64,000 nucleotides of DNA from Crocinitomix sp. Its GTDB lineage: Bacteria; Bacteroidota; Bacteroidia; Flavobacteriales_D; Crocinitomicaceae. Every line of letters begins with the position of its first letter. The stretch's first letter is position 1. Location of the stretch: contig WTCE01000005.1 of the NCBI GenBank assembly GCA_013138735.1, positions 1-64,000 of the forward strand, written 5' to 3'. Under the pieces are notes generated by a model. The model ran no database searches. It was not told the origin of the DNA and worked only from the letters and a program-made list of their open reading frames with translations. The translations under genes and the position numbers were made by a program. Positions 35,365 to 47,892 of the stretch are shown here, piece after piece.

Positions 35365-36657
35365 TTAAACTTCAATTCCTTTCAACATCTTGTTCCAATA
35401 CAAGCGTGGTAGAATATATTTTTTAAGCCACCACAAACGGCGACTCTCTTTTGAAGAATCTTTGATCAGCATTTGTTTCAATTTTGGATCGGGAGTAAAA
35501 TTCGAATCATAATCAAACTCAGCCAAAACCATTTTTCCATAACCTGTCACTAAAGGACAAGAAGAATAACCGTTATACGTTTTATCACCCAAGGTATTAG
35601 ACGCTATTAAACGTGTAATGTTTTCAACAACCACTGGTACTTGTTTACGAACAGCTGCACCCGTTTTTGCTGTAGGTGCCGAAGTAGCATCACCTACTCC
35701 AAAAATATTTGGATGTTTGGTGTGTTGCATTGTTCCTTTATCAACATCAAACCATCCTGTCTCATTCGCCAATGATGAATTACGAATAAAATCTGGGGCA
35801 GATTGTGGTGGTGCCAAGTGCATCATATCAAAATGAATCCCAACCAAACCTTCTGATTGAGTGATTTTTGCATTTTTGTTATTATAGTTTATCGATTCGT
35901 CAATCTCTCCCGCGTCATTATCTTCCATAAGCACACAACCTCCGGCTTTTGGATCTTTAGTTATTTGATACCACGCAATTTGATTCTCTCCATCCACTTT
36001 TACTAATTTATGGTGGAATCGCAAATTAATATCTTTTCGATTCACAACTTCCATGAGCGTTTTAGCAATTGGTTTCACACCAAAAATTACACCTCCAGGG
36101 GTTGCAAAAACAACCTTCGTTTTATCACGTACGCCTGATTTTCTGAAATGATCATCTGCTAAATACATGATTTTTTGAGGCGCACCCCCGCATTTAATTG
36201 GTGTTGCTGGTTGCGTAAATAATGCCGTACCACCTTTAAAGTTTTTCAACACTTCCCAGGTGTGCTGTGGATCAGTATAATTACTACACACCACACCTTT
36301 ATCCATGGCTTCTGTTAAACCTTCAACCAAAGAAGTGTCGATTTTAATTCCAGGTGAAACGACTAAATAATCGTAATTGATTCTTGTTCCGGCAGTAGTT
36401 ACTACCGTATTGTTTTCGGGTTCAAATTTGTCCGCATATTCTTTTACCCAATTGACACCAGCTGGCATAACAGATGCCATTGTGCGTTTGGTTTTTTCAA
36501 AATCGAATGTGTTTGCCCCAACAAGCGTCCATGCTGGTTGATAATAATGAAATTCTGCAGGTTCAAGAAGCGTTATTTTTACATTGCCTCTTTTTAGGAG
36601 CTGCGCTGCGGTCATTATGCCGCCAGTTCCTCCGCCGATAATTAGTATATGAGTCAT
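35365..36657 (-). CDS. sqr: Sulfide:quinone oxidoreductase
   Basis: 430 aa from the ATG at 36657, which begins MTHILIIGGGTGGIMTAAQL, the FAD-binding motif; a longer version would overlap the promoter. The three cysteines expected of SQR are present in VVCSNYTDPQ, TPIKCGGAPQK and SSCPLVTGYG. The enzyme oxidises sulfide at the membrane, producing persulfide or polysulfide and reducing quinone. It follows an activator-type promoter with the GTAAC-N4-GTTAC operator and opens the sulfur island; its product feeds the rhodaneses and sulfite dehydrogenase nearby. Confidence 0.93.
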   Translation of the reverse strand: MTHILIIGGGTGGIMTAAQLLKRGNVKITLLEPAEFHYYQPAWTLVGANTFDFEKTKRTMASVMPAGVNWVKEYADKFEPENNTVVTTAGTRINYDYLVVSPGIKIDTSLVEGLTEAMDKGVVCSNYTDPQHTWEVLKNFKGGTALFTQPATPIKCGGAPQKIMYLADDHFRKSGVRDKTKVVFATPGGVIFGVKPIAKTLMEVVNRKDINLRFHHKLVKVDGENQIAWYQITKDPKAGGCVLMEDNDAGEIDESINYNNKNAKITQSEGLVGIHFDMMHLAPPQSAPDFIRNSSLANETGWFDVDKGTMQHTKHPNIFGVGDATSAPTAKTGAAVRKQVPVVVENITRLIASNTLGDKTYNGYSSCPLVTGYGKMVLAEFDYDSNFTPDPKLKQMLIKDSSKESRRLWWLKKYILPRLYWNKMLKGIEV

Positions 36658-36675: not shown

Positions 36676-36719
36676 GCAATCTAAAAATTGTGTGTGACAA
36701 AAAAAGTAACATATGTTAC
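36676..36719 (-). promoter_or_regulatory. Sulfur-island promoter of sqr: operator plus -7 box
   Basis: Operator GTAACATATGTTAC at 36706-36719 (perfect palindrome) and -7-like box TAGATTGC at 36676-36683. The centres are 33 bp apart, placing the operator near -40, where class II Crp/Fnr activators bind. Confidence 0.75.
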
Positions 36720-36786
36720 ACAAGATCAATTGACTAACTCGAAAATCGCCTTATTTTCTATGATTAAACCAAATATAAATACAGGT

Positions 36787-37281
36787 TTATAATTCGTACC
36801 AGTCAATAATCTCGATATTTCGTCTTCTCCCCTCATCTACTGGTGCATAATTTTTTGCCAAATAGGTTAAAATCACCTCCTCTTTTTCTCCTAAATCCCA
36901 CAAGCCTTGCGTTTCTTGCATCCACACAATAATATCCTTCCAACCCTTACGATCAGCCTTATTCTGCGTTACTAAATCAAGCGAATGACATGCGCCACAC
37001 GTCATGATTACCTGATCAACACCATCATCAACAATTAAACCTGTTGGAATGTGGATACCGTTTTCAATCTCATCAGGATTAAGATTCATTGTTGCAAGCA
37101 TTGGATCAATAGCACTGGTGTCCAAAGCCGAAATATTTTCATTAGGTGCAGAAAAAAATCGGGGAAAATACGTTAATTGAATCGTGAAAATCACGGCCAC
37201 AACAATCAATAGTGTAGCCCATGAAATTGTTCGTTTCGCTTGCTTTATCGCCTGCTGATAAATTTCTTTCTTTTCCGTCAT
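36787..37281 (-). CDS. Membrane-anchored monoheme cytochrome c (SorB-like subunit)
   Basis: 164 aa. One N-terminal membrane helix (ISWATLLIVVAVIFTIQLTYF) anchors a periplasmic cytochrome domain with the heme motif CGACH near residue 95 and candidate axial Met in IIVWMQET. It shares one base with the end of the upstream molybdenum subunit gene. Context and size indicate the electron-accepting subunit of a sulfite dehydrogenase, passing electrons to the respiratory chain. Confidence 0.88.
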   Translation of the reverse strand: MTEKKEIYQQAIKQAKRTISWATLLIVVAVIFTIQLTYFPRFFSAPNENISALDTSAIDPMLATMNLNPDEIENGIHIPTGLIVDDGVDQVIMTCGACHSLDLVTQNKADRKGWKDIIVWMQETQGLWDLGEKEEVILTYLAKNYAPVDEGRRRNIEIIDWYEL

Positions 37282-38519
37282 TAGGCCTGTTTTACTGCTA
37301 TTCTATGACAGGCATTATTGAGGTAGCCTTTTGGATTCCAACCAGGTAAAATCATAGGTTGTACTGTCCCATTTTCATCCATTGCACGCGCCCAAATTTC
37401 GTAATAACCGTAACTGGGTAAAGTAATTTCTGTTCTCCACCTTTGCCAAGCCAACCTGTTTTTGGGTGGATTCAATTCGCATTTTTGCCACGTAACGCCA
37501 AAATCTAATGACACAATAACCGATTTTACCATAAGATCTCCCGCCCAAGCATGTCCGCGTACTTCAAATGATTGGCCTTTTGCTATAATTGCACCCGTTT
37601 TTGGATAGGTCACAATTGATTTAACGGGCATAGATTCGATAATTTTCATATCCTCATCTGGTACTTTTGTCCCCGGCGGAACGGGATATTTTGGCACACG
37701 ATAGGATTGCCCTCCCATTTTTGGCCCATCATGTTCTTTATCTCGAATCACAATTTTTGTGAGCCATTTTCCCGAAACTGACGCAGGCCATCCGCCCATA
37801 ACCAGTCGCAGTGGATAACCATTCATTACTGGAATAGCTTCGCCATTCATAGCCCATGCAATTAAGGATTCATCCTCCATTGCTTTTTTGATGGGAACAC
37901 CTCTGGAAATGACAACTTTTTTAGTGTCTCCAGAAAGATGGGTATCTGCCCCATAATAACCAATATAAACCGCCGAGTTTTTTAAACCCACGGCATTTAA
38001 AACATCTTTTAATCGAACACCGGTCCAACGGGTGCAAGCTACAGCGCCCAAACCCCATTGATTGCCTTTTGCTGGTGGATTAAATTCTGACCTCCCATTT
38101 CCGCCGCATTCCAAGGTTAAATCATAGGTGTAATGGGTAAAGTTCTCGTATAATTCCTTTAATGTAAACACCTTTTTTTGTTCGGCCGCTTCTCCTTCAA
38201 TCGTCAAGGTCCATGTGTCCAAATCAAATTCGGTTGGTGGAATCCCATTATTACGCACAAACATTAAATTGGCGGGTGTTATTTCCGGATCCAATAAATG
38301 GGTCGGTGTTTCAGCATTCCACGGCTTATGATTTAAGATGGTTAATGCTTCGCTTTTTCCGGGTAATTTTTCGCCGTCAACGGTTTCATCTAAACCAATT
38401 GGTTCTAATTCGGCAGGAAAGTTTGCGCCATAAACGATTTTTGTTCCAACCAAAGCAGTAAAAGCGGCTAAGGCCGATTTTGTAATAAAGTTTCTTCTTG
38501 AATTTTTTTTGTTACTCAT
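37281..38519 (-). CDS. Molybdopterin sulfite dehydrogenase (SorA/SoxC-like), Tat-exported
   Basis: 412 aa. A twin-arginine signal (NSRRNFITKSALAAFTALVG) precedes a sulfite-oxidase-type molybdopterin domain: LTLECGGNGRSEF carries the Mo-binding Cys, followed by WGLGAVACTRWTGVRL. A C-terminal dimerisation domain runs from about residue 290 (ESMPVKSIVTYPKTG). It oxidises sulfite, or sulfane sulfur in SoxC relatives, in the periplasm. It is divergent from the rhodanese-desaturase gene, and the operator between them is set at 33 bp from a -7-like box on both sides. Confidence 0.92.
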   Translation of the reverse strand: MSNKKNSRRNFITKSALAAFTALVGTKIVYGANFPAELEPIGLDETVDGEKLPGKSEALTILNHKPWNAETPTHLLDPEITPANLMFVRNNGIPPTEFDLDTWTLTIEGEAAEQKKVFTLKELYENFTHYTYDLTLECGGNGRSEFNPPAKGNQWGLGAVACTRWTGVRLKDVLNAVGLKNSAVYIGYYGADTHLSGDTKKVVISRGVPIKKAMEDESLIAWAMNGEAIPVMNGYPLRLVMGGWPASVSGKWLTKIVIRDKEHDGPKMGGQSYRVPKYPVPPGTKVPDEDMKIIESMPVKSIVTYPKTGAIIAKGQSFEVRGHAWAGDLMVKSVIVSLDFGVTWQKCELNPPKNRLAWQRWRTEITLPSYGYYEIWARAMDENGTVQPMILPGWNPKGYLNNACHRIAVKQA

Positions 38520-38567
38520 ACGCTGATAATTGGATGGAGTGTTATTAAACCGTGCGATTCAACTTAC

Positions 38568-38641
38568 CAAAATAATCAATTTCTTTTTTGTTTATTGGTA
38601 ACTAAAGTTACATTGAATCAAGAAAGTCCTTATTACCTTTC
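38568..38641. promoter_or_regulatory. Shared operator with two divergent promoters
   Basis: Operator GTAACTAAAGTTAC at 38598-38611. On the plus strand TACCTTTC (38634-38641) and on the minus strand TTATTTTG (38568-38575) are both centred 33 bp from it. One palindrome thus fits activation of both the rhodanese-desaturase gene and the sulfite dehydrogenase operon. Confidence 0.72.
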
Positions 38642-38664
38642 CAAAATCACTAGTAAATACCACA

Positions 38665-40470
38665 ATGAATAAATACTATACTTTCTTTTTAGGACTGCTT
38701 TTGTTAAGCGTTAATGCTTTCACGCAAACAAGTTCTCATTCCATTATCTCAGCCGACGAATTGGCGGATCATTTTTCAGAATACGTCGTTCTGGATATTT
38801 CAAAAGAAGAAATATTTCAGGAAGAGTCGATTGCTGGAGCACTTCATTTTACACGCGACGTTATTTCAAAGACAGATGGGGAATATGGTGGACTGATGGC
38901 GAGCCGCGAAAAACTGGAAACCTTATTCAGTGATCTTGGTATTGCACCAACTGATAAAATTGTTGCATACGACCATAAAGGCGGTAGTGATGCTGCGCGT
39001 TTATGGTGGGTTCTGCGTTTTTACGGTCATGAACAGGTTCAATTATTGAACGGTGGAATAAGGGCATGGGGAGACAGAACTCCTTCAGTAGATAGTGTAA
39101 AAACATTGACACCACCTTCGGCCTATGTTTTTCCTGCCAGTTCGAAAAACGTCATAAAGGGAGCAGATATTGCATCAGTAAAGGCAGCAATAGAAAACCC
39201 CAATATCATACTTATTGACACAAGAAACAAAGCGGAATATGAGGGCGCATTTCAAAAAGACGGAGCGTTTAAAGCGGGGAGAATTCCAGGAAGTATTCAT
39301 ATTGATTGGGCGGCGAATATTGATTATCATGGCGATCAACTATTACACGATAAGGATAGTTTACTGCGTTTGTATGAATCAAATGGTATTACAAAAGACA
39401 AGGAGATAATCGTTTATTGTCATTCAGGCGTGCGCTCATCTTTTACCGCTTTTGTGCTTTCTGAAGTCCTTGAATATCCTAATGTAAGTAATTACGACGG
39501 CTCGTGGATTGAGTGGAGTTATCATAATGAATTAGCAATTGATACTGGTGCTATTGTGCTTCCTGCAGAAGAATATGTGGCCACTTATGGTGAAGTGTTT
39601 TGGGCTGGGTTTGGCAATTTTGCATCTTATACTTGGAATGAAATTACTTTCAACGTTTCACCATGGTATGTGAATTATTTTTGGTTGCTTGTAGCACTTT
39701 CTTTAGTTGTTTGGCTCTTAGAAATCGCATTTCCTTGGCGCAAAAACCAACCGAAAATTCGAAAAGATTTTTGGGTAGATGCTTTTTTCATGTTCTTTAA
39801 CTTTTACATTTTTAAAATTATCATCTTCATGTCCTTTTCTGAAGTGACTGCGAAATTTTTTCATGATTTAATTGGAGGAGATGTTACCTCTTATGCGCTA
39901 ATCGATTTGGCTAGTTTGCCCTTATGGCTGCAACTTATTATCTTTTTTATCGCAACCGATTTTATACAATGGTTTACACATGTATTATTACATAGGTTTG
40001 ACTTTTTATGGCGCTTTCATAAAGTCCACCATTCAATTGAGCAAATGGGATTTGCAGGACATTTACGTTTCCACTGGATGGAAAATATTTTCTACACCCC
40101 AATGAAATATATTACTGTCATGTTAATTGGAGGCTTTACGCCAGAAATGGCTTATATCGTCTTTTATATTTCAATTGCAATTGGTCATTTAAACCATGCG
40201 AATATTGGTTTGGGTTACGGTCCTTTAAAATATATTTTCAATAATCCTAAAATGCACATCTGGCATCATGCGAAAGAATTACCGAAAAAACGGCGCTACG
40301 GTGTTAATTTTGGGATTTCCTTGAGTATTTGGGATTATATCTTCGGCAAAAACTATATCCCTTCGGACGGGCGAGATATTGAACTTGGTTTTGATGGAAT
40401 TGAAAAATATCCGAAAGGGTTTTTTGGTTTGATCTTTTCGGGATTTCGTAAAACCCCAGATGAAAAATAA
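38665..40470 (+). CDS. Tandem rhodanese fused to fatty-acid hydroxylase/sterol desaturase
   Basis: 601 aa. Signal peptide (1-20); rhodanese domain 1 (about 25-150) without catalytic Cys (YDHKGGSDAARL); rhodanese domain 2 (about 165-295) with active Cys near 252 in YCHSGVRS, the usual thiosulfate/mercaptopyruvate sulfurtransferase arrangement. Membrane helices follow, then a fatty-acid-hydroxylase domain with the di-iron histidine clusters HVLLH (~438), HKVHH (~451), HLRFH and HIWHH (~531). The sulfurtransferase part would lie in the periplasm, the di-iron part in the membrane. The frame is uninterrupted across the junction. A plausible link is lipid modification coupled to sulfur transfer, but this is inference. 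Confidence 0.92.
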   Translation: MNKYYTFFLGLLLLSVNAFTQTSSHSIISADELADHFSEYVVLDISKEEIFQEESIAGALHFTRDVISKTDGEYGGLMASREKLETLFSDLGIAPTDKIVAYDHKGGSDAARLWWVLRFYGHEQVQLLNGGIRAWGDRTPSVDSVKTLTPPSAYVFPASSKNVIKGADIASVKAAIENPNIILIDTRNKAEYEGAFQKDGAFKAGRIPGSIHIDWAANIDYHGDQLLHDKDSLLRLYESNGITKDKEIIVYCHSGVRSSFTAFVLSEVLEYPNVSNYDGSWIEWSYHNELAIDTGAIVLPAEEYVATYGEVFWAGFGNFASYTWNEITFNVSPWYVNYFWLLVALSLVVWLLEIAFPWRKNQPKIRKDFWVDAFFMFFNFYIFKIIIFMSFSEVTAKFFHDLIGGDVTSYALIDLASLPLWLQLIIFFIATDFIQWFTHVLLHRFDFLWRFHKVHHSIEQMGFAGHLRFHWMENIFYTPMKYITVMLIGGFTPEMAYIVFYISIAIGHLNHANIGLGYGPLKYIFNNPKMHIWHHAKELPKKRRYGVNFGISLSIWDYIFGKNYIPSDGRDIELGFDGIEKYPKGFFGLIFSGFRKTPDEK

Positions 40471-40528
40471 TCGCTTGATTCAATAGCACGCGATCATTAT
40501 GGGTATCATCATTTTGTGCTATTAACGT

Positions 40529-42172
40529 TTATTTTTTGCCATTTGCTACTTGAATAGCTCTTTCCAATTGTTCATCTTTACCATTTGAAACACCTTCAAT
40601 GGTTGGTTTTAATTCAATGTCAATTTTAATTCCCTTGCGTTGTGTTTCCGTTTTGTCGGGATAAAAAATTCCGTAGCCGGTAAAGCTTGTTTTAAAGCCT
40701 CCTACCATTTCAAAGCTTGAGACCTTTCCGTCTGCACCTGAAGTTTGACTTCCTACAGTGACAACATTATCTCCAGCTTGTAAACACATTGCCGTAAATT
40801 CTGAATGACTCTGGGTGCCTTCATTAACCAATAAAACAACCTTTCCTTTATACCGTTCTCCCTCACCATTTCCCACTTGGTAACCTTTATTCCATATAAA
40901 CCTACCTGGGTAATTAAGGTCTGGTGCTATTGCAGAATAAAAATCAGTTCTTTCAGTAGTAATAAAGTCTGAAATTATATTTATCGTCCCTTTAGACTTT
41001 TTTCGAATGTCAATTATTATTGCTTTTGTAGTAGAAAATTGTTGCAATACGCTGCCAATCTCATCTTTCGTGATTTGATTCAAATTTAAATAACCCACGT
41101 TGTTATCAAGCATTTTGAAGCCTACCGCATTTACTGCTTTTTTCTTGAATTGGTCGTAAGGATATCGTTTGATTGTTTTCGAATAACTAATTCCTTTTCT
41201 TACAAATTCAATTTCTAATGAATCTGAGGATCCTTTAAAAATAAAAGATTGTGAACTATACATTTTTCGAGGCTTATTAGAGCCCATGATATACTGCTCA
41301 TTTTCCAAGTAAATGGATTCAACAAACCTATTATTGACTTTTGTAATAATATCTCCAATTTGAAGATCGTTTACTGTCGCCAATGAATCATCCCTAAACT
41401 TGGTGATAATGGCCTTATTATCCACCAAACTTATTTGTGCAGGGATAAACTTATTACCGAAATAATTAAAGGTTTGTGGGGTGACGAAACTACCATGTGA
41501 ATCATCAATTGACGCTACCAAAGAAAGCATTGCGAGATGGTAATCAACTTCAGAATTAGCGTTTAAAAATTTAGGGATCATCTCGATTAAAATAGCATCC
41601 CAGTTTTTATCTGTTTGGTATTTATGTGGAAAAAAATACTCAATAATATTCCAATACCTAAAAAGTGACAAAAGTCGATACTCTTGTTTCTGCCAAGCAA
41701 TATTTTGATAAGGCTTTTCATTCGTTATTTTGACATAACCCGAATTTCCTTTTACATACGAAACATAATACTTATTCCCTTGATGTCTCTTCGTTTCAAT
41801 ACATTTTAAGGTAGCGCTTAAAGCATCAGAAAAATAAGTGTCATCTTCAATCCAGGCAAGGTTGAAGTTCTGGTCAAAATAGTCATGACTTGACTTTTTA
41901 ACCCGCGATTTTATTTTGCCAAATGAGGCAATCCAACCATTTAATAAAAGTGATAGTTGTGTTTTGTCCGCGGCTTTTTCAACTATTGGTAGGATATCAA
42001 AGAGCTGTTGGTCCCAATCAAATTTTCCAGCCGCTACTTTAGGATGATAGTATTTAAGATATCCCCACACCTTTGCAGTTGCATATAGTTTCTCAGTATT
42101 TGATAAACTCTTTGAATAGCTGTTCTTGTTGAAGCACAATAAAAGAAACAGTAGTACTATAGAAAACTTCAT
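40529..42172 (-). CDS. S41 family peptidase
   Basis: 547 aa with a signal peptide (MKFSIVLLFLLLCFNKNSYS). A helical N-terminal region is followed by a PDZ-like segment (about 250-330, 'LQIGDIITKVNNRFVES') and the S41 protease core. The candidate nucleophile Ser lies in NEGTQSHSEFTA and the Lys in TSGADGKVSSF, matching the carboxy-terminal-processing class. It probably acts in the periplasm or on the surface. It sits between sulfur genes but has no sulfur-related motif and no GTAAC operator; its placement may be incidental. Confidence 0.87.
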   Translation of the reverse strand: MKFSIVLLFLLLCFNKNSYSKSLSNTEKLYATAKVWGYLKYYHPKVAAGKFDWDQQLFDILPIVEKAADKTQLSLLLNGWIASFGKIKSRVKKSSHDYFDQNFNLAWIEDDTYFSDALSATLKCIETKRHQGNKYYVSYVKGNSGYVKITNEKPYQNIAWQKQEYRLLSLFRYWNIIEYFFPHKYQTDKNWDAILIEMIPKFLNANSEVDYHLAMLSLVASIDDSHGSFVTPQTFNYFGNKFIPAQISLVDNKAIITKFRDDSLATVNDLQIGDIITKVNNRFVESIYLENEQYIMGSNKPRKMYSSQSFIFKGSSDSLEIEFVRKGISYSKTIKRYPYDQFKKKAVNAVGFKMLDNNVGYLNLNQITKDEIGSVLQQFSTTKAIIIDIRKKSKGTINIISDFITTERTDFYSAIAPDLNYPGRFIWNKGYQVGNGEGERYKGKVVLLVNEGTQSHSEFTAMCLQAGDNVVTVGSQTSGADGKVSSFEMVGGFKTSFTGYGIFYPDKTETQRKGIKIDIELKPTIEGVSNGKDEQLERAIQVANGKK

Positions 42173-42246
42173 TTACGCTTTGGGTAATTGCCCTCAAATT
42201 TAGAATTTAAGTACAATTATAACAATTTTAAACTAACGTTTAATCC

Positions 42247-42480
42247 CTAGGCCGTCTTTGGTTTTCTGTCAAGCAAATTAAGTACGCCTGAAATTATTAA
42301 AAGAAACCAAGGTGCGCCGTGCATTAAAAAATCGAACCAATCCATTGCTTGCATTCCCTCTGCTCCGCCCATAATCCATTGTAATTTCCCCCATATATGC
42401 GGGGGAGTAAACGGTGCTAATCCTAATGTTAGGGATGCGATCGCGAAAAATTTCCAGTTTGTTTTTAAAGCTTCTTTCAT
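42247..42480 (-). CDS. Small membrane protein (77 aa)
   Basis: Two hydrophobic segments, WKFFAIASLTLGLAPFTP and APWFLLIISGVLNLL, joined by a loop rich in Trp and Gly. It follows the methyltransferase and rhodanese genes in the same direction. The function is not known to me; a role in the sulfur island is only suggested by position. Confidence 0.75.
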   Translation of the reverse strand: MKEALKTNWKFFAIASLTLGLAPFTPPHIWGKLQWIMGGAEGMQAMDWFDFLMHGAPWFLLIISGVLNLLDRKPKTA

Positions 42481-42525
42481 GTTGATTTTATACTATACAA
42501 TTTGTGTTTTTTAAGCGGATTTCGC

Positions 42526-43116
42526 TTATTTCGTTCCAATGAAGCGAATTACTTTTGCTGTTCCTTGATGGAAAGGGCCTTCGTTTAGGTTCACTTCCTC
42601 CTCTGCTAAATAATTAACTGTTAAGTCAGAGAAAATTGCCTTCACTTCCGTTTCTGAAAAAAGCATGGCCTCATTTTTAGGTCCACCAGAACTTAAGCCC
42701 AGTTGATTTTTACTAAACGCTTCAAATATTACGCGCCCACCAGGCTTTAAAAATTTTAAGAGATGCCTATAAGCGGCTGTTCTAATTTCATGCGGAATGT
42801 GGGCGTAGATTAATGCTATTGCATCAAATTCATTTGTTTGAGCGGTGAAAGATTCAAAAGATTCGATCTGATAATCGATTTGAACTTGTTCAGCTTCGGC
42901 TAATTTTAATGCCTTTTCTCGTCCTTCAGAACTTGTGTCAAAGGCGGTTACATCACATCCGTTTTTTGCCGCAAAAACAGCGTTCCTTCCTTCTCCCTCT
43001 GCCGGTAAAAGAATTTTAGTGTCCGTATTTCCTAGGTTTACTGCTAGAAATTCGTTTGGCGTTTTTCCATAGGCATATTCAACCTTTTGGTAACGCTCGT
43101 CCCAGAATGCTTTCAT
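42526..43116 (-). CDS. Class I SAM-dependent methyltransferase (TehB/thiol methyltransferase-like)
   Basis: 196 aa. The SAM-binding fold is clear: 'TKILLPAEGEGRNAVFAAKNG' (motif I), 'VTAFDTSSEGREKAL', 'FDAIALIYAHIP' and 'LKPGGRVIFEAF'. This group includes TehB and thiopurine or thiol methyltransferases. Its start shares one base with the stop of the rhodanese lipoprotein gene. Methylation of a sulfur compound would fit the context, but the substrate is not shown by the sequence. Confidence 0.85.
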   Translation of the reverse strand: MKAFWDERYQKVEYAYGKTPNEFLAVNLGNTDTKILLPAEGEGRNAVFAAKNGCDVTAFDTSSEGREKALKLAEAEQVQIDYQIESFESFTAQTNEFDAIALIYAHIPHEIRTAAYRHLLKFLKPGGRVIFEAFSKNQLGLSSGGPKNEAMLFSETEVKAIFSDLTVNYLAEEEVNLNEGPFHQGTAKVIRFIGTK

Positions 43117-43535
43117 TACCAGTTTAAATATCCGCCTTCTAATTCAAGCACATGAGTAAATCCATTTGCTTCAAAAACCTTAAGTGCCTTTGAACTTCTG
43201 TTACCACTTCTACAATAAATTAAAACGGGTGCATTTTTGTCTAAACTGTTGATGTTTGATTCAAAACTTGCGTTATTATAATCAATATTGCTTGCACCTT
43301 CTATTGCGCCATCTTGAAATTCGCCTGGTGTTCTTACATCAATGAGTTGTACATTTTCGTTTTCAGTTAAAAATGTTTGAAACTCAGACTTTGTAACTCG
43401 TTTAATTTCAGTTGGTGTTTCAGTTGTCGTTTCAACGGTAGGTGTTTCCGTTCCACCACTTGTTGTTGATTCTGATTGTGCGCATGCTGTTACGGCAAAT
43501 ACGCTTACTATTACTCCTATAAAGGTCGTTTTCAT
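43116..43535 (-). CDS. Rhodanese-domain lipoprotein
   Basis: 139 aa. The lipoprotein signal ends at VTAC; a Thr/Glu-rich linker leads to one rhodanese domain with active-site loop CRSGNRSSKA. It is likely anchored in the periplasm, where it would move sulfane sulfur from persulfides. It is the first gene of an operon with the methyltransferase and the small membrane protein. A terminator-like hairpin lies in its leader (43553-43592). Confidence 0.9.
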   Translation of the reverse strand: MKTTFIGVIVSVFAVTACAQSESTTSGGTETPTVETTTETPTEIKRVTKSEFQTFLTENENVQLIDVRTPGEFQDGAIEGASNIDYNNASFESNINSLDKNAPVLIYCRSGNRSSKALKVFEANGFTHVLELEGGYLNW

Positions 43536-43552
43536 ATTCTCTTTTTTATAAA

Positions 43553-43592
43553 ATTAAAAAAAATCCGCTCCACTATTCAAAGTAGAACGGAT
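43553..43592 (-). terminator. Terminator-like hairpin ahead of the rhodanese lipoprotein gene
   Basis: ATCCG (43563-43567) pairs with CGGAT (43588-43592) with further pairing inside, followed on the minus strand by a T-rich run. It may end the upstream rhodanese transcript, but a good -7 box (TAATTTTG, 43613-43620) starts before it, so it could also act as an attenuator. Confidence 0.65.
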
Positions 43593-43663
43593 AATTATGC
43601 TTAGTTGGTCATCAAAATTATTCTAAACTAAAAACTGTCTCAAACCAACTTCTCTCTCTACTT

Positions 43664-43679
43664 GTTGATCGTTATCAAC
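43664..43679. promoter_or_regulatory. FNR-like box GTTGAT-N4-ATCAAC
   Basis: Perfect arms GTTGAT and ATCAAC around CGTT, matching the TTGAT-N4-ATCAA form bound by FNR-type regulators. It lies 129 bp before the rhodanese lipoprotein start. It differs from the GTAAC operators elsewhere in the island. Confidence 0.55.
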
Positions 43680-43698
43680 ATCCTCTTTTTTCCAAATC

Positions 43699-43995
43699 CT
43701 AAATATTTTGCCAAGCACCTGCATTATGTGCCGTAATCCCACTGTTATTGAGCATGCGTTGTGCTTGTCCAGCTCTTGCGCCAGATCTGCAAACCAATAC
43801 AACTGTTTTTCCTTTTAATTCTTTCACTTTACCACCTAATGATTGCAGCGGAAAGTTTTTACTCCCTTTCACATGTCCTCCTCTAAACTCTTCTTTTGTG
43901 CGCACATCAACTACCACCGCACCATCACTAATTAACGCAGTATAATCTACTTTCTCACCAGTTAACGCTCCTCTTAATTTTTCTAAAAATCCCAT
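43699..43995 (-). CDS. Single-domain rhodanese, cytoplasmic
   Basis: 98 aa: one rhodanese domain with active-site loop CRSGARAGQ and no signal peptide, so a cytoplasmic persulfide carrier of GlpE/YgaP type. It has its own promoter with the GTAAC-N4-GTTAC operator and a perfect TAAATTTG -7 box, inside the end of the upstream TauE gene region. Confidence 0.92.
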   Translation of the reverse strand: MGFLEKLRGALTGEKVDYTALISDGAVVVDVRTKEEFRGGHVKGSKNFPLQSLGGKVKELKGKTVVLVCRSGARAGQAQRMLNNSGITAHNAGAWQNI

Positions 43996-44070
43996 TTATG
44001 TTTTTCTTTTTTAATCCTCTATTGCAAAAAGCGAGAGAATGTTGTTTTATATTGATTTAACTTACTGGTA

Positions 44071-44114
44071 CAAATTTAAGGCTTATGAAAGCTTCTGTCA
44101 GTAACAATAGTTAC
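44071..44114 (-). promoter_or_regulatory. Sulfur-island promoter of the cytoplasmic rhodanese
   Basis: Operator GTAACAATAGTTAC at 44101-44114 and -7 box TAAATTTG at 44071-44078, centres 33 bp apart. The operator overlaps the last codons of the upstream exporter gene. Confidence 0.78.
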
Positions 44115-44917
44115 ACCTTGAATATTGTTTCTTTCAATACGATATATATTCCCATTATTAAAACAAACCAGCCAAATCCTTTTTTGAGCTTATTGCCTTC
44201 AATAAATTTATTGAGATAGAGTCCTATAAAAATACCTGAGACAGATATGCCAGTAAAAATCAATAAAAAGGGCCAATCGATTGGCGTGTTTTGCACGTCT
44301 CCTAAAAAGCCGAACAATGATTTTACCGCAATAATCATTAGTGAAGTGGCCACCGCTTTTTTCATAGGTAATTTTGCCAAAAGCACCAAGGCTGGAATAA
44401 TTAAGAATCCTCCGCCAGCACCAACAATTCCGGTTAGTACTCCTACTACAATTCCTTCTAAAATTATGAGTGGATAATTGTATTGAACTGCCTCTGCTTC
44501 ACCTGCTACGTCTTTTCTTCCTTTAATCATGGAATAAGAAGCTAAAAGCATAATAATGGCGAAAAAGACCATGATGGAAATATCCTTTGTCACCACAAAA
44601 TCACCAACCCTAAATAATTCTTCGGGTATTGCAGGAACTAAATACCTGCGTGTTAAAAAGACAGCTAATAATGCTGGAATTGCGAATACAATTCCAGTTC
44701 TGAAATCAACCATTCCTTTACGCGCATTGACTATCGCTCCAACCAATGAAGCTGTTCCTACAACAAAAAGTGAATATGCCGTTGCGAGAACCGGACTTAT
44801 TCCCATGACATAATATAGAATAGGAACTGTTAAAATAGAACCACCACCACCGATTAATCCTAACACGATTCCAATGATTAATGCCCCTAAATAACCAAAA
44901 ATTTCAATCAATTCCAT
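44111..44917 (-). CDS. TauE/SafE family sulfite or sulfoacetate exporter
   Basis: 268 aa with about eight membrane helices. The repeated family motif appears twice: 'GLIGGGGSILTVPILYY' near the N-terminus and 'GIVGAGGGFLIIPALVLL' in the second half. TauE/SafE proteins export sulfite, sulfoacetate or other organosulfur anions; here, sulfite made by persulfide oxidation is the likely cargo. Its own promoter carries a GCAAC-N4-GTTAC operator. Confidence 0.9.
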   Translation of the reverse strand: MELIEIFGYLGALIIGIVLGLIGGGGSILTVPILYYVMGISPVLATAYSLFVVGTASLVGAIVNARKGMVDFRTGIVFAIPALLAVFLTRRYLVPAIPEELFRVGDFVVTKDISIMVFFAIIMLLASYSMIKGRKDVAGEAEAVQYNYPLIILEGIVVGVLTGIVGAGGGFLIIPALVLLAKLPMKKAVATSLMIIAVKSLFGFLGDVQNTPIDWPFLLIFTGISVSGIFIGLYLNKFIEGNKLKKGFGWFVLIMGIYIVLKETIFKV

Positions 44918-44936
44918 TCCGATAAATTATTCGGTA

Positions 44937-44980
44937 CAAAGTTGATGATGTTGCTTTCCAATAGCAGCAACAAATGTTAC
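44937..44980 (-). promoter_or_regulatory. Sulfur-island promoter of the TauE/SafE gene
   Basis: Operator GCAACAAATGTTAC at 44967-44980 (one mismatch to the consensus) and -7-like box CAACTTTG at 44937-44944, centres 33 bp apart. Confidence 0.7.
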
Positions 44981-45003
44981 ATAAACGAAAGCAGTATTGA
45001 AAA

Positions 45004-45417
45004 TTAATGAGGCAATTTACGTCTGACAACACCGTACAAAAATGTCCCCAAAAGTGCTCCGCCAATTACAATAAGCATGGACCAAGCACCTGTGCCAACT
45101 AAAACATACATTGGTCCTGGACAGGCACCTGCCAATGCCCAGCCTAAGCCGAAAATTCCGCCGCCTAATAAGTAGCGCGTAACGGATTTGGCTTTTGGTG
45201 TAAATTGAATTTCTTCACCGTAAATATTTTTAATATTTTTTCGTTTGATAATTTGGACGAATGCAATGCCCAACATTACTGCTGAACCTATGATACCATA
45301 CATGTGAAATGCTTCAAAACGGAACATTTCGTAAATTCTAAACCAAGATACGGCTTCCGATTTATACATGATAATTCCAAATATAAATCCGATCGCTATA
45401 AATTTTAAATATTTCAT
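45004..45417 (-). CDS. YeeE/YedE family transporter, C-terminal half (DUF6691-like)
   Basis: 137 aa with four membrane helices; 'GGGIFGLGWALAGACPGPMYVLVGTGAW' holds the conserved Cys of the YeeE/YedE (TsuA) thiosulfate-type channel. With the gene immediately upstream it would make a two-piece version of the usual single-chain transporter. It likely imports thiosulfate or another reduced sulfur species. Last of the USP-YeeE-YeeE group of the crp operon. Confidence 0.88.
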   Translation of the reverse strand: MKYLKFIAIGFIFGIIMYKSEAVSWFRIYEMFRFEAFHMYGIIGSAVMLGIAFVQIIKRKNIKNIYGEEIQFTPKAKSVTRYLLGGGIFGLGWALAGACPGPMYVLVGTGAWSMLIVIGGALLGTFLYGVVRRKLPH

Positions 45418-45438
45418 TTTATGTTTTTTATAGCGTTA

Positions 45439-45999
45439 TTAAAGTAAATAGGGGAGTATAAAAAAGGTCATTATAATACCGCCAATAAAAAAGCCTATTA
45501 CGGCGATTAAAGACGGTAGTTGTAAATTACTTATACCACTAATTGCATGACCAGAGGTACAGCCGCCTGCCCATCTTGTTCCAAACCCGATTAACAAACC
45601 ACCGACAATGAGAATCATTAAACCTTTGAAGGATGTTACGGCCTCCCAACCAAATATTTCTTCTGGAAGATATGCATCTCCAGCATTTTGAAAGCCAGCC
45701 GCCTCTAAAGAAACCACTGTATTTTCACTCAAATCAATTGTAGCATCCTCAGACATATACTGCGACGCAAAAAAGCCGCCCAATACTGCACCAACAACCA
45801 CCATTAAATTCCAAAGTTGACTTTTCCAATCAAACTTGAAAAAATCGGCCGCTTTACCTGCCCCGCCAATGCTACACATTGTGCGTAGGTTTGAAGACAT
45901 TCCAAAGTTTTTGCCCGTAAGCAATAAGAATAACATAACCAATGCTATTAGAGGCCCTGAAACATACCACGGCCATGGTTGAAGAATTGCATCTAACAT
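45439..45999 (-). CDS. YeeE/YedE family transporter, N-terminal half
   Basis: 186 aa with four to five helices; 'LLIGFGTRWAGGCTSGHAISG' contains the conserved Cys-Thr-Ser-Gly-His motif, and 'LRTMCSIGG' a further Cys. Pairs with the 137-aa gene 21 bp downstream. It starts 4 bp after the universal stress protein stop. Cysteines in such channels relay thiosulfate across the membrane. Confidence 0.88.
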   Translation of the reverse strand: MLDAILQPWPWYVSGPLIALVMLFLLLTGKNFGMSSNLRTMCSIGGAGKAADFFKFDWKSQLWNLMVVVGAVLGGFFASQYMSEDATIDLSENTVVSLEAAGFQNAGDAYLPEEIFGWEAVTSFKGLMILIVGGLLIGFGTRWAGGCTSGHAISGISNLQLPSLIAVIGFFIGGIIMTFFILPYLL

Positions 46000-46003
46000 T
46001 TTA

Positions 46004-46825
46004 TTAGCAAATTAAAAGTGGTGCGTAAATATGATTCACAATGTTTTCCTGATCGGTATGATGGTTAAACAAACTAAAAAATGTTGCTTTAGTTCTTCTA
46101 GCTACTACAATTAAATCAGTGAACCCATCCGTGTGTAATTCGGAAACGCCGCTTTCTTTATCTGCACTTTTAATAATTTTTAAAGTGGCGTTTAATCCAT
46201 TCATTTCTGCAAAGGCCTGCATTACTTGTTTAATGTCAGCATCAGGCCTTTTATCATTTGGTGTTTGTATCTTAATTAATGTGATTTCACTTTCATGCCG
46301 TTTAGCAATTGTTTTTATCACATCAAAATTTTCTTTACTTGGAATAGTAAAGTCACCGATCAATGCAATTCTTTCTGGAGAGAAATTATCTCGATTGCAT
46401 TTGATGGTTAAATAAGGTAAAGTTGTATTTGCAATTATTCTTGACGGATACGTTTTAACAAAGGCATCTTCCATTACAGTAGTTTTATGTGCTCCGCCAA
46501 CAATAATATCTATTTGGTTCGTTTGAATATAATCTTTCAAAATGCTCATCTTATTTCCAGCATAAGAGTTCCGCGCAACAACTAAAGGATGTTTGATACT
46601 ATTCAGATAATCTAGGTTATTTTCCGTTTGTTTGATATATGCTGACAGGTCAAATTCTGTACAAAAATCTAAAACCCTACCGTTTATTTGAAGCGGAATT
46701 TCACCATTTGTTGGTACAATGTTCAATAAATGAATTTGCGTATCAGTTCCTTCAAATAATGAACTTGAAAAATTCACAACTGACTGATCCAATTGATTGT
46801 GTTTAATCAAAATTAGTACTCTCAT
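46004..46825 (-). CDS. Universal stress protein
   Basis: 273 aa, two UspA-like domains (RVLILIKHNQLDQSVVNFSS and ERIALIGDFTIPSKENFDVI). The nucleotide motif is degenerate (GGAHKTTVMEDAFVKTYPSR). It lies 9 bp after the Crp/Fnr regulator gene and 4 bp before the YeeE gene, so it is part of that operon. Similar proteins are commonly placed with sulfur or anaerobic regulators; its precise job is unknown. Confidence 0.82.
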   Translation of the reverse strand: MRVLILIKHNQLDQSVVNFSSSLFEGTDTQIHLLNIVPTNGEIPLQINGRVLDFCTEFDLSAYIKQTENNLDYLNSIKHPLVVARNSYAGNKMSILKDYIQTNQIDIIVGGAHKTTVMEDAFVKTYPSRIIANTTLPYLTIKCNRDNFSPERIALIGDFTIPSKENFDVIKTIAKRHESEITLIKIQTPNDKRPDADIKQVMQAFAEMNGLNATLKIIKSADKESGVSELHTDGFTDLIVVARRTKATFFSLFNHHTDQENIVNHIYAPLLIC

Positions 46826-46834
46826 AAAGTGGAT

Positions 46835-47467
46835 TTAAAAATCTAAAAATTCAATTTTATTGCGGTGTAGTTGTACTTTACCTTCTCTTTCCAGACTTTT
46901 TAGAATCCGTGAAATAACGACCCTTGAAGTGTGCAAATCATAAGCAATAGTTTGGTGCGTAATAGACAACATGGTGTCTTTCGTAACAATAACTTTATGT
47001 TTTAAATATTTTAGCACACGGTCGTGCATATTTAAAAAGGCCAAATTATCAATGGCTTCGAGCATTTCTTTGAACCTTGCATTATAACTTTCAAATACAA
47101 ATGTTCGCCATGAATGATAATCGCGTAACCAATCAGACATTTTTTGAACAGGAATCATTATAATTTTTGTGTCCATCTCAGCCATTGCACGAATCTCACT
47201 CACAGAATTTCCCATACAACATGTCAACGTCATGGCACATACATCTCCTCTTTCAAGGTAGTAGAGTAATAATTCGTCCCCATCATCATCTAATCGCGAC
47301 ACCTTTATGGCGCCTTCCAACAATAATGGCATATATCTGATACTGTCGCCAATATTTATTATAACGTCCCCTTCAATAACGTCTTTAATAAAGCCGACTT
47401 TGGAGATTTCCTCCAATAACTCTTTTTCAAATAGGTGTTCGTAATTATCTTGTAGAAGCGCTTTCAT
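46835..47467 (-). CDS. Crp/Fnr family regulator, probable persulfide-responsive activator
   Basis: 210 aa. A cyclic-nucleotide-binding fold (about 20-120) is followed by a helical linker and a winged helix-turn-helix (about 165-200: THQTIAYDLHTSRVVISRIL). In place of nucleotide-binding residues it has Cys77, Cys83 and Cys84 (GDVCAMTLTCCMG), a likely thiol switch. It lies in the same operon as transporters and a stress protein, and its gene start overlaps the DUF983 gene. The five GTAAC-N4-GTTAC palindromes in the island are its most likely binding sites; this is inference from position and geometry. Confidence 0.88.
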   Translation of the reverse strand: MKALLQDNYEHLFEKELLEEISKVGFIKDVIEGDVIINIGDSIRYMPLLLEGAIKVSRLDDDGDELLLYYLERGDVCAMTLTCCMGNSVSEIRAMAEMDTKIIMIPVQKMSDWLRDYHSWRTFVFESYNARFKEMLEAIDNLAFLNMHDRVLKYLKHKVIVTKDTMLSITHQTIAYDLHTSRVVISRILKSLEREGKVQLHRNKIEFLDF

Positions 47468-47831
47468 TTTTGGTTTTAGGTTTATAATGGAAAAAGAAAT
47501 TTGCCCAAATTATTTTAGAAAGATAATAAGAAAAAGGTGTCATGAGTACAATACCCGACACAATAATTGTTGCTAAAACAGGAATGCTCATTTCAGGAAA
47601 TAAAACGCTACAAGCTACCCAAAGGGTAACAAAAATTGCGACACCAATTGCATAAGTCACATAATATGAGCCTTGATAAAATCCAGGCTCTTTTGAGAAC
47701 TTTTCACCGCAAACGGTACATTTTTCAGCAACTTTTCCTTTAAAGCGCGATCCCTCAAAAAAATCACCTTCATGGCAATGCGGGCACTTTGAATTAAAAA
47801 TGCTGTATAATTTTGATCCTTCTTTAAGCAT
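47445..47831 (-). CDS. DUF983 family membrane protein
   Basis: 128 aa from the ATG at 47831, preferred over an upstream ATG that would overlap the promoter. An N-terminal zinc ribbon (CPHCHEGDFF, then CTVCGEKF) is followed by two membrane helices. Its end overlaps the crp gene start by 23 bp. DUF983 proteins are widespread and of unknown function. It is the first gene of the regulator-transporter operon. Confidence 0.85.
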   Translation of the reverse strand: MLKEGSKLYSIFNSKCPHCHEGDFFEGSRFKGKVAEKCTVCGEKFSKEPGFYQGSYYVTYAIGVAIFVTLWVACSVLFPEMSIPVLATIIVSGIVLMTPFSYYLSKIIWANFFFHYKPKTKNESASTR

Positions 47832-47848
47832 GACTATTACATTTCGTT

Positions 47849-47892
47849 CAAAAATAAGTCGAAGGAAAATTAAATGTTGTAACATTTGTTAC
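47849..47892 (-). promoter_or_regulatory. Sulfur-island promoter of the DUF983-crp operon
   Basis: Operator GTAACATTTGTTAC at 47879-47892 (extended palindrome TGTAACATTTGTTACA) and perfect -7 box TATTTTTG at 47849-47856, centres 33 bp apart. If the regulator binds here it controls its own operon. Confidence 0.78.

Follow-up and report, generated by a model that had tools for sequence, protein, structure and literature searches.

We analysed the first 64,000 nucleotides of contig WTCE01000005.1 of Crocinitomix sp. (assembly GCA_013138735.1), a stretch hereafter called the window, in which GTAAC-N4-GTTAC palindromes stand upstream of putative sulfur genes and of a gene for a Crp/Fnr-family regulator (46835–47467). 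Our sequence comparisons suggest, at a probability of about 0.8, that this regulator is the activator of a sulfur regulon that it controls from class II promoters, with a reactive sulfur species as the likely signal.

A preliminary description of this DNA reported five GTAAC-N4-GTTAC operators, each lying 33 bp from a -7 box. All five positions hold and four of the palindromes are exact (GTAACNNNNGTTAC, starting at 36706, 38598, 44101 and 47879), while the one at 44967–44980 reads GCAACAAATGTTAC and has one mismatch. Distances were taken from operator centre to box centre, and each box was scored by its matches to the six fixed bases of TAnnTTTG. Summed over the six promoters of the window (the divergent operator serves one on each strand), the score at 33 bp was 31 of 36, compared with 20 for the runner-up among 80 gaps (32 bp) and at most 17 for the rest; when six window octamers were drawn at random 200,000 times, no draw reached 31. 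The 33-bp rule is thus borne out at all six promoters, on both strands at the divergent site, as is the described range of boxes from perfect to weak (4, 5, 5, 6, 5 and 6 of 6). The sqr operator falls in a 461-codon open frame because the sqr frame runs open upstream of its ATG. The six promoter predictions, if correct, place the start of sqr at the ATG at 36657 instead of the TTG that opens the longest, operator-spanning frame farther upstream, and that of the DUF983 gene at 47831; these ATGs lie 14 and 13 nt past the predicted +1, respectively, with predicted leaders of 13–71 nt at all six promoters.

The same spacing recurs in other genomes. When 249 genomes of the order were searched for the operator with a perfect box at gaps of 10–35 bp (26 distances), 84 had such a pair; among the 150 matches listed, which come from 78 of those 84 genomes and are not all that exist, 113 lay at 33 bp, 14 at 32 bp and 23 over the other 24 distances. 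Within a phylum set of 345 genomes, 53 had a match and 62 of 100 matches were at 33 bp, including none of the 12 from outside the class. The 80 named regulator loci (L253–L332, 1.49 Mb) hold 164 exact palindromes, against 0–8 for each of six control palindromes. Of their 328 operator orientations, 146 (in 64 of the 80 loci) are paired at 33 bp with a box matching in 5 or 6 of the 6 positions, versus about four at each other distance (12 at 32 bp), and perfect boxes number 77 at 33 bp and no more than two at any other distance. The spacing rule of the preliminary description is therefore kept among relatives. The consensus of the 146 promoters is TnTGTAAC-N4-GTTACtg-N20-TAHHTTTG; G seldom occurs at the two central positions of the box (0.08 and 0.02), as likewise reported for F. 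johnsoniae in the accessible part of PMC6847099.

Mapping in two Flavobacterium species placed the flavobacterial promoter box at T-12 to G-5 (PMC6847099, PMC9723704; both available in part). A distance of 33 bp from a box at -12 to -5 puts the operator centre at -41.5, the class II position, and predicts the 5' ends. The operators had been described as lying near -40, where class II activators bind; the class stands, and by the published mapping, as far as it was accessible, the centre moves to -41.5.

The binding protein is very probably that encoded at 46835–47467, as judged from its helix and from the operators of its relatives. It belongs to the Crp/Fnr superfamily (PF00027, 39.4 bits, cut-off 27.5; PF13545, 32.9 bits, cut-off 27), and the top Foldseek matches of its structure model are CAP, NtcA and 3dv8, which place it at superfamily level only. 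The window's own genome encodes 16 cNMP-domain proteins, and among the 14 whose recognition helix could be aligned, R-V-V-x-S-R occurs only in this one (as R-V-V-I-S-R). In the phylum set, the strict 33-bp site was found in 26 of 30 genomes with a regulator homologue of at least 255 bits, a threshold chosen after the scores were seen, versus 6 of 315 others (Fisher p 2.5e-29). These six exceptions include G527, whose Val-helix regulator with the cysteine triad discussed below scored 248 bits, and G484, where the gene behind the site is hcp.

The strongest evidence for 46835–47467 as the binder is that the operator changes with Val or Glu at one position of the recognition helix. This is Val183 of the window protein, which we take to be CRP position 181 from the helix alignment, and it is Val in all 80 named homologues. 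At 11 loci with Glu there, GTGA-N6-TCAC stood with a box at 33 bp ten times (in seven loci) and at 34 bp three times, and GTAAC stood at 33 bp never; at nine loci with Val, GTAAC stood at 33 bp five times (in four loci) and GTGA never (the comparison includes L382). The GTGA-N6-TCAC sites precede similar genes (sqr, YeeE, SulP, rhodanese and regulator), and the Glu-helix loci that have them at 33 bp (L373, L375, L376, L377, L380, L381 and L392) amount to a natural operator switch. Whole-genome searches for GTGA-N6-TCAC with a perfect box gave 9 of 20 matches at 33 bp in seven Glu-helix genomes and 2 of 11 in 14 genomes assumed to have the Val helix (the best regulator was read in nine of them, all CCC with R-V-V), a mildly informative comparison. 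In a FastTree tree of 101 homologues with a midpoint root, Val and Glu proteins are mixed in a clade of 0.987 support that is separate from the main split, a pattern implying at least two changes there. Both the helix, the sole one of its pattern among 14, and the operator that varies with its residue in relatives uphold the earlier naming of this protein as the regulator.

The genes behind homologous sites in other genomes support the proposed sulfur regulon. We fetched 120 sites among the matches listed (111 at 33 bp and 9 of the 14 at 32 bp, with the own genome's two excluded), clustered the first genes by BLAST and named the clusters by eye or after the window proteins that they resemble; the family was checked for representatives of the metallo-beta-lactamase (MBL)-rhodanese, SulP and thioredoxin clusters. 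First genes encoded a rhodanese or MBL-rhodanese (53), DUF983 or the regulator (27), TauE (9), thioredoxin (5), SulP (4), a kelch-like secreted protein (3) and small DsrE-like, TolC-like and CcoG-like proteins (2 each); the 13 singletons include sorA (1), YeeE (1) and thioredoxin reductase.

Autoregulation, also proposed at the outset, holds for the window's own group: a regulator homologue (38–84% identical) is the first or second gene at 21 of the 120 sites, and at both Crocinitomix loci the regulator gene has an operator and box upstream. It fails as a general rule, since an operator with a good box within 900 bp upstream accompanies 9 of the 80 named regulator genes (eight exact, one with one mismatch), with weak candidates upstream in nine others and none in 62. 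At the Flavobacterium loci L268–L271, L289, L290, L298 and L310, an operator, mostly with one mismatch, stands 60–62 bp upstream and the box TATCTTTA lies 34 bp from it, which might be autoregulation in a divergent form.

The window's own genome (6.84 Mb, 188 contigs, 97.5% complete) has as its closest named relatives uncultured Crocinitomix contigs, whose regulators are 88% identical. A scan found 12 exact palindromes, four of them clustered within 11 kb of the window, rather than many copies at random positions; a control palindrome occurs 16 times, so the operator is not over-represented genome-wide. Outside the window, one exact copy lies 33 bp from TAAATTGC (4/6) ahead of a 1-Cys peroxiredoxin gene, two lie 33 bp from TAACTTAA (4/6) ahead of genes for a DUF2202 protein and a CxxCH protein, and the remaining five fall inside open frames of 173–907 codons. 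Allowing up to two mismatches in operator plus box gave 20 matches, the six window promoters included. Such sites also precede thioredoxin, MBL-rhodanese fusion, another rhodanese, peroxiredoxin and cytochrome c-like genes, and all of these families except peroxiredoxin also lie behind sites in other genomes; several matches have no fitting gene.

All 80 named homologues of the regulator share three of its cysteines, C77, C83 and C84, and no other cysteine is conserved among them (the one other shared column with a cysteine is position 166, in 2 of 80). They align with what we take to be the cAMP phosphate-binding cassette of CRP, and their position suggests thiol-based sensing of sulfur. Among 53 regulators, including the window's own two copies, L074 has G at 83; L141, a more distant paralogue with a Glu helix, has Val at 84. 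A separate group of 20 homologues with lower scores contains some Val-helix proteins that lack the triad (CGG). Val-helix paralogues of this kind, with Gly-Gly replacing C83–C84, are encoded at L347, L349 and L352, and they may share GTAAC operators, for example in genome G255. The structure model (mean pLDDT 85.2, pTM 0.62), whose block means are 64 and 67 over the cysteine-bearing residues 71–90, does not show the cysteine geometry.

Given a regulon of sulfide and persulfide enzymes together with the triad, the most straightforward interpretation is that the protein senses reactive sulfur through its thiols. A possible, though distinctly less likely, account retains the regulator and its operators and has the cysteines sense redox state, oxygen, a metal or an iron-sulfur cluster, with the sulfur genes induced indirectly. 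The cysteines could serve any such signal and the regulon contains thioredoxin, peroxiredoxin and cytochrome genes, but its commonest targets are sulfur-handling enzymes, and only three cysteines are conserved, none of them N-terminal, so that the four-cysteine [4Fe-4S] arrangement of FNR (an N-terminal cluster plus a further cysteine) is absent. The protein is not FNR itself, lacking the N-terminal cysteine cluster (only C77, C83 and C84 are conserved in 80 homologues), nor a cAMP-type CRP (NF008732, 54.3 bits against a cut-off of 266).

The protein might instead repress, sitting at -41.5 and blocking polymerase until sulfur stress releases it. Such a mechanism has precedents in the persulfide-responsive SqrR and CstR, described as repressors in the accessible part of PMC9774590, but we consider it improbable. 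Two promoter sets, each above 100 in size, are dominated by one position, -41.5 (113 of the 150 listed, and 146), which we read as a need for polymerase contact, and a repressor would tolerate varied positions. The spacer of the 146 promoters also has no TTG (-33 element) at a fixed place, with at most seven TTG at any offset, and such an element was accordingly rejected; a weak T-G right after the operator remains (0.56 and 0.53).

It is very unlikely that an HcpR2-type nitrosative-stress regulator owns the operators, with the sulfur genes as hitch-hikers or as NO-stress genes. The motif published for HcpR2, GTAACnnnnGTTAC, is identical (Rodionov et al. 2005, PMC1274295, available in part), and the 33-bp site in genome G484 lies ahead of a true hydroxylamine reductase gene (843 bits, cut-off 367). 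However, prismane/hcp (PF03063) was not found in the 97.5% complete own genome, while 5 of 14 control genomes were positive; none of the 14 aligned cNMP proteins of the own genome has Pro at the helix column, although the alignment of distant paralogues is uncertain and one of them, L206, has a Pro two residues ahead of that column; and sulfur genes, with no hcp, stand behind the 120 fetched sites of the window's order. On these grounds we rejected HcpR2 as the protein to which the operators of the window's genome belong. The hcp promoter in G484 (L353, gene at 1033–2664 on the minus strand) likewise keeps 33 bp between GTAAC-N4-GTTAC and TATCTTTG, and a centre at -41.5 may therefore apply to HcpR2-type regulation in Bacteroidota as well. 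A chance origin of the palindromes in AT-rich DNA can be dismissed, since the palindrome's lack of genome-wide over-representation (12 versus 16) is outweighed by the clustering, single spacing and conservation of the sites, by the spacing scores and by the distribution of distances in other genomes.

Several points weigh against the activator reading. The sqr box is weak (4/6); in the named loci, a distance of 26 bp holds 11 boxes of at least five bases (mean about 4), which is unexplained; and the two-mismatch search of the own genome gave 20 matches versus 14 for a reversed control, so single weak sites prove little and each needs its own judgement. The sulfur-gene counts behind the 120 sites stand without a random-site background rate, autoregulation is not general, and 4 of the 30 genomes with close homologues lack the strict site (one, G285, has a Glu helix). 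The Val/Glu comparison comprises 20 loci only, in which five of nine Val loci have no site at 33 bp, three of 11 Glu regulators lack C84 (one of these, at L392, supplies 2 of the 10 GTGA sites) and L377, a Glu locus, combines a perfect box with a GTAAC palindrome 34 bp away. The chemistry at C77, C83 and C84 may instead be of an iron-sulfur, metal, disulfide or NO type. The sequences themselves establish the operator, its spacing, the genes behind it, their conservation and the operator's change with one recognition residue; activation is deduced from operator position alone, and from these data we infer binding, activation over repression, enzyme functions and the sulfur signal.

If 46835–47467 is indeed the activator, a regulator dimer would bind GTAAC-N4-GTTAC centred at -41.5, replacing the weak -33 element and touching RNA polymerase at TAHHTTTG (-12 to -5). 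The regulon would oxidise sulfide via sqr; rhodaneses and the MBL-rhodanese fusion would move and oxidise persulfide sulfur, sorAB would oxidise sulfite and TauE export it, and the YeeE pair would move sulfur compounds. In the window's family, activation by the regulator probably extends to its own operon. A reactive sulfur species (persulfide or polysulfide from sulfide) would likely modify the three invariant cysteines at the place of the CRP cAMP pocket. A broader proposal, on which we find the balance even, is that a Crp/Fnr reactive-sulfur sensor, with a C-x5-CC triad replacing the nucleotide pocket, is a master activator of sulfide oxidation across Flavobacteriales and their kin, and that its operator switched at least twice between GTAAC-N4-GTTAC and GTGA-N6-TCAC with Val or Glu while geometry and regulon stayed fixed.

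Parts of this system are already known, to judge from the accessible portions of the sources: the palindrome (as that of HcpR2, PMC1274295), the promoter box and class II activation. HcpR2 resembles the window regulator as a Crp/Fnr protein with the same palindrome and a change at CRP position 181 of the recognition helix. From what could be seen of its description, it differs in having Pro at 181 and in controlling hcp, whereas the window regulator has Val and a three-cysteine motif and is associated with sulfur genes, and no hcp was found in its genome. At class II promoters of E. coli CRP and FNR the operator is centred at -41.5, and the window regulator shares this position and the two-domain fold. 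It scores far below the CRP equivalog cut-off, has no FNR N-terminal cysteines and, as far as the accessible flavobacterial literature indicates, would work with a sigma factor that recognises TAHHTTTG, not TATAAT. The closest solved sequence is 3dv8, a Crp/Fnr protein of Eubacterium rectale (E 1e-19), which has the cysteines corresponding to C77 and C83, Ile in place of C84 and Glu in the recognition helix; we know of no regulon for it.

FisR, a sigma54-type regulator and not a Crp/Fnr protein, resembles the window regulator in controlling sulfide or persulfide genes and in cysteine sensing (proposed here), and proteins of the MarR, OxyR, PerR, AdpA and LasR types have been named as persulfide or sulfane-sulfur sensors. 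Persulfide and sulfane-sulfur sensors of the ArsR and CsoR types are described in the available part of PMC9774590. As far as that source goes, SqrR, BigR and CstR share the same two features, but they belong to the ArsR or CsoR families rather than to Crp/Fnr, and SqrR and CstR repress. A search of its accessible text for Fnr and Crp returned only two Shewanella Crp references, and no Crp/Fnr protein was met among such sensors in the literature searched. That literature, which covered few subscription papers, yielded no account of how sulfide oxidation is controlled in Bacteroidota and no earlier mention of this sulfur regulon or its regulator, of the constant 33-bp spacing or of the cysteine triad. 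Regulator, operator, promoter position and targets form one testable package that predicts +1 sites, in which Val/Glu is a natural specificity switch at one residue; if true, it represents a new, testable kind of sulfur sensor in many Bacteroidota. Our data also suggest that, as in E. coli, -41.5 is the position from which Crp/Fnr proteins activate the sigma factor, here the divergent one of Bacteroidota.

Table 1 Promoter elements and genes of the putative sulfur regulon in the window.
Feature	Position	Strand	Evidence or remark
sqr operator GTAACATATGTTAC	36706..36719	-	exact palindrome, centre 33 bp from box
sqr promoter -7 box TAGATTGC	36676..36683	-	4/6 consensus bases
Divergent operator GTAACTAAAGTTAC	38598..38611	.	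serves sorA (-) and rhodanese-desaturase (+)
sorA promoter -7 box TTATTTTG	38568..38575	-	5/6
Rhodanese-desaturase promoter -7 box TACCTTTC	38634..38641	+	5/6
Cytoplasmic rhodanese operator GTAACTATTGTTAC	44101..44114	-	exact palindrome
Cytoplasmic rhodanese -7 box TAAATTTG	44071..44078	-	6/6
tauE operator GTAACATTTGTTGC	44967..44980	-	1 mismatch
tauE -7 box CAACTTTG	44937..44944	-	5/6
DUF983-crp operon operator GTAACAAATGTTAC	47879..47892	-	exact palindrome
DUF983-crp operon -7 box TATTTTTG	47849..47856	-	6/6
sqr, type III-like sulfide:quinone reductase	35365..36657	-	NCBIfam SQR_III 240 bits, under cut-off 525
sorB-like c-type cytochrome subunit	36787..37281	-	SorB model E 1.4e-4, 21.9 bits, under cut-off 93
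sorA-like sulfite dehydrogenase catalytic subunit	37281..38519	-	PF00174, PF03404; SorA model 231 bits, under cut-off 600
Double rhodanese + fatty-acid hydroxylase/desaturase fusion	38665..40470	+	PF00581 (two stretches), PF04116; signal-like N-terminus by eye
Lipoprotein-like rhodanese	43116..43535	-	PF00581; possibly co-transcribed with cytoplasmic rhodanese
Cytoplasmic single-domain rhodanese	43699..43995	-	PF00581
TauE/SafE sulfite exporter	44111..44917	-	PF01925, 146 bits
Second YeeE/YedE half (DUF6691)	45004..45417	-	PF20398, PF04143
YeeE/YedE sulfur transport half	45439..45999	-	PF04143
273-aa protein, presumed regulator operon	46004..46825	-	no Pfam match; universal-stress-like by eye
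Crp/Fnr regulator	46835..47467	-	PF00027, PF13545; C77, C83, C84; recognition helix S181-R-V-V-I-S-R187
DUF983 protein, first gene of presumed regulator operon	47445..47831	-	PF06170

Two features of these genes stand apart (Table 1). The protein at 38665–40470, in which two rhodanese domains are joined to a fatty-acid hydroxylase/desaturase membrane domain, is an unusual combination. The DUF983 and regulator genes lie in different frames in the window and in two Crocinitomix contigs, and at L091 (genome G173, same genus) they share one 331-aa open frame, either a fusion or a sequencing error.

Elsewhere in the own genome, similar promoters at C66:57730 and C66:61266 (L432 and L424), whose operators have two and one mismatches, respectively, with TAGATTTG at 33 bp, lie ahead of paired, similar 450-aa secreted-looking proteins. 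A kelch-like secreted protein is encoded behind the own-genome peroxiredoxin (L002, 1577–2290 and the downstream gene), and kelch-like proteins stand directly behind the operator in three other genomes (L078, L079 and L154), possibly marking this protein as a conserved member of the regulon.

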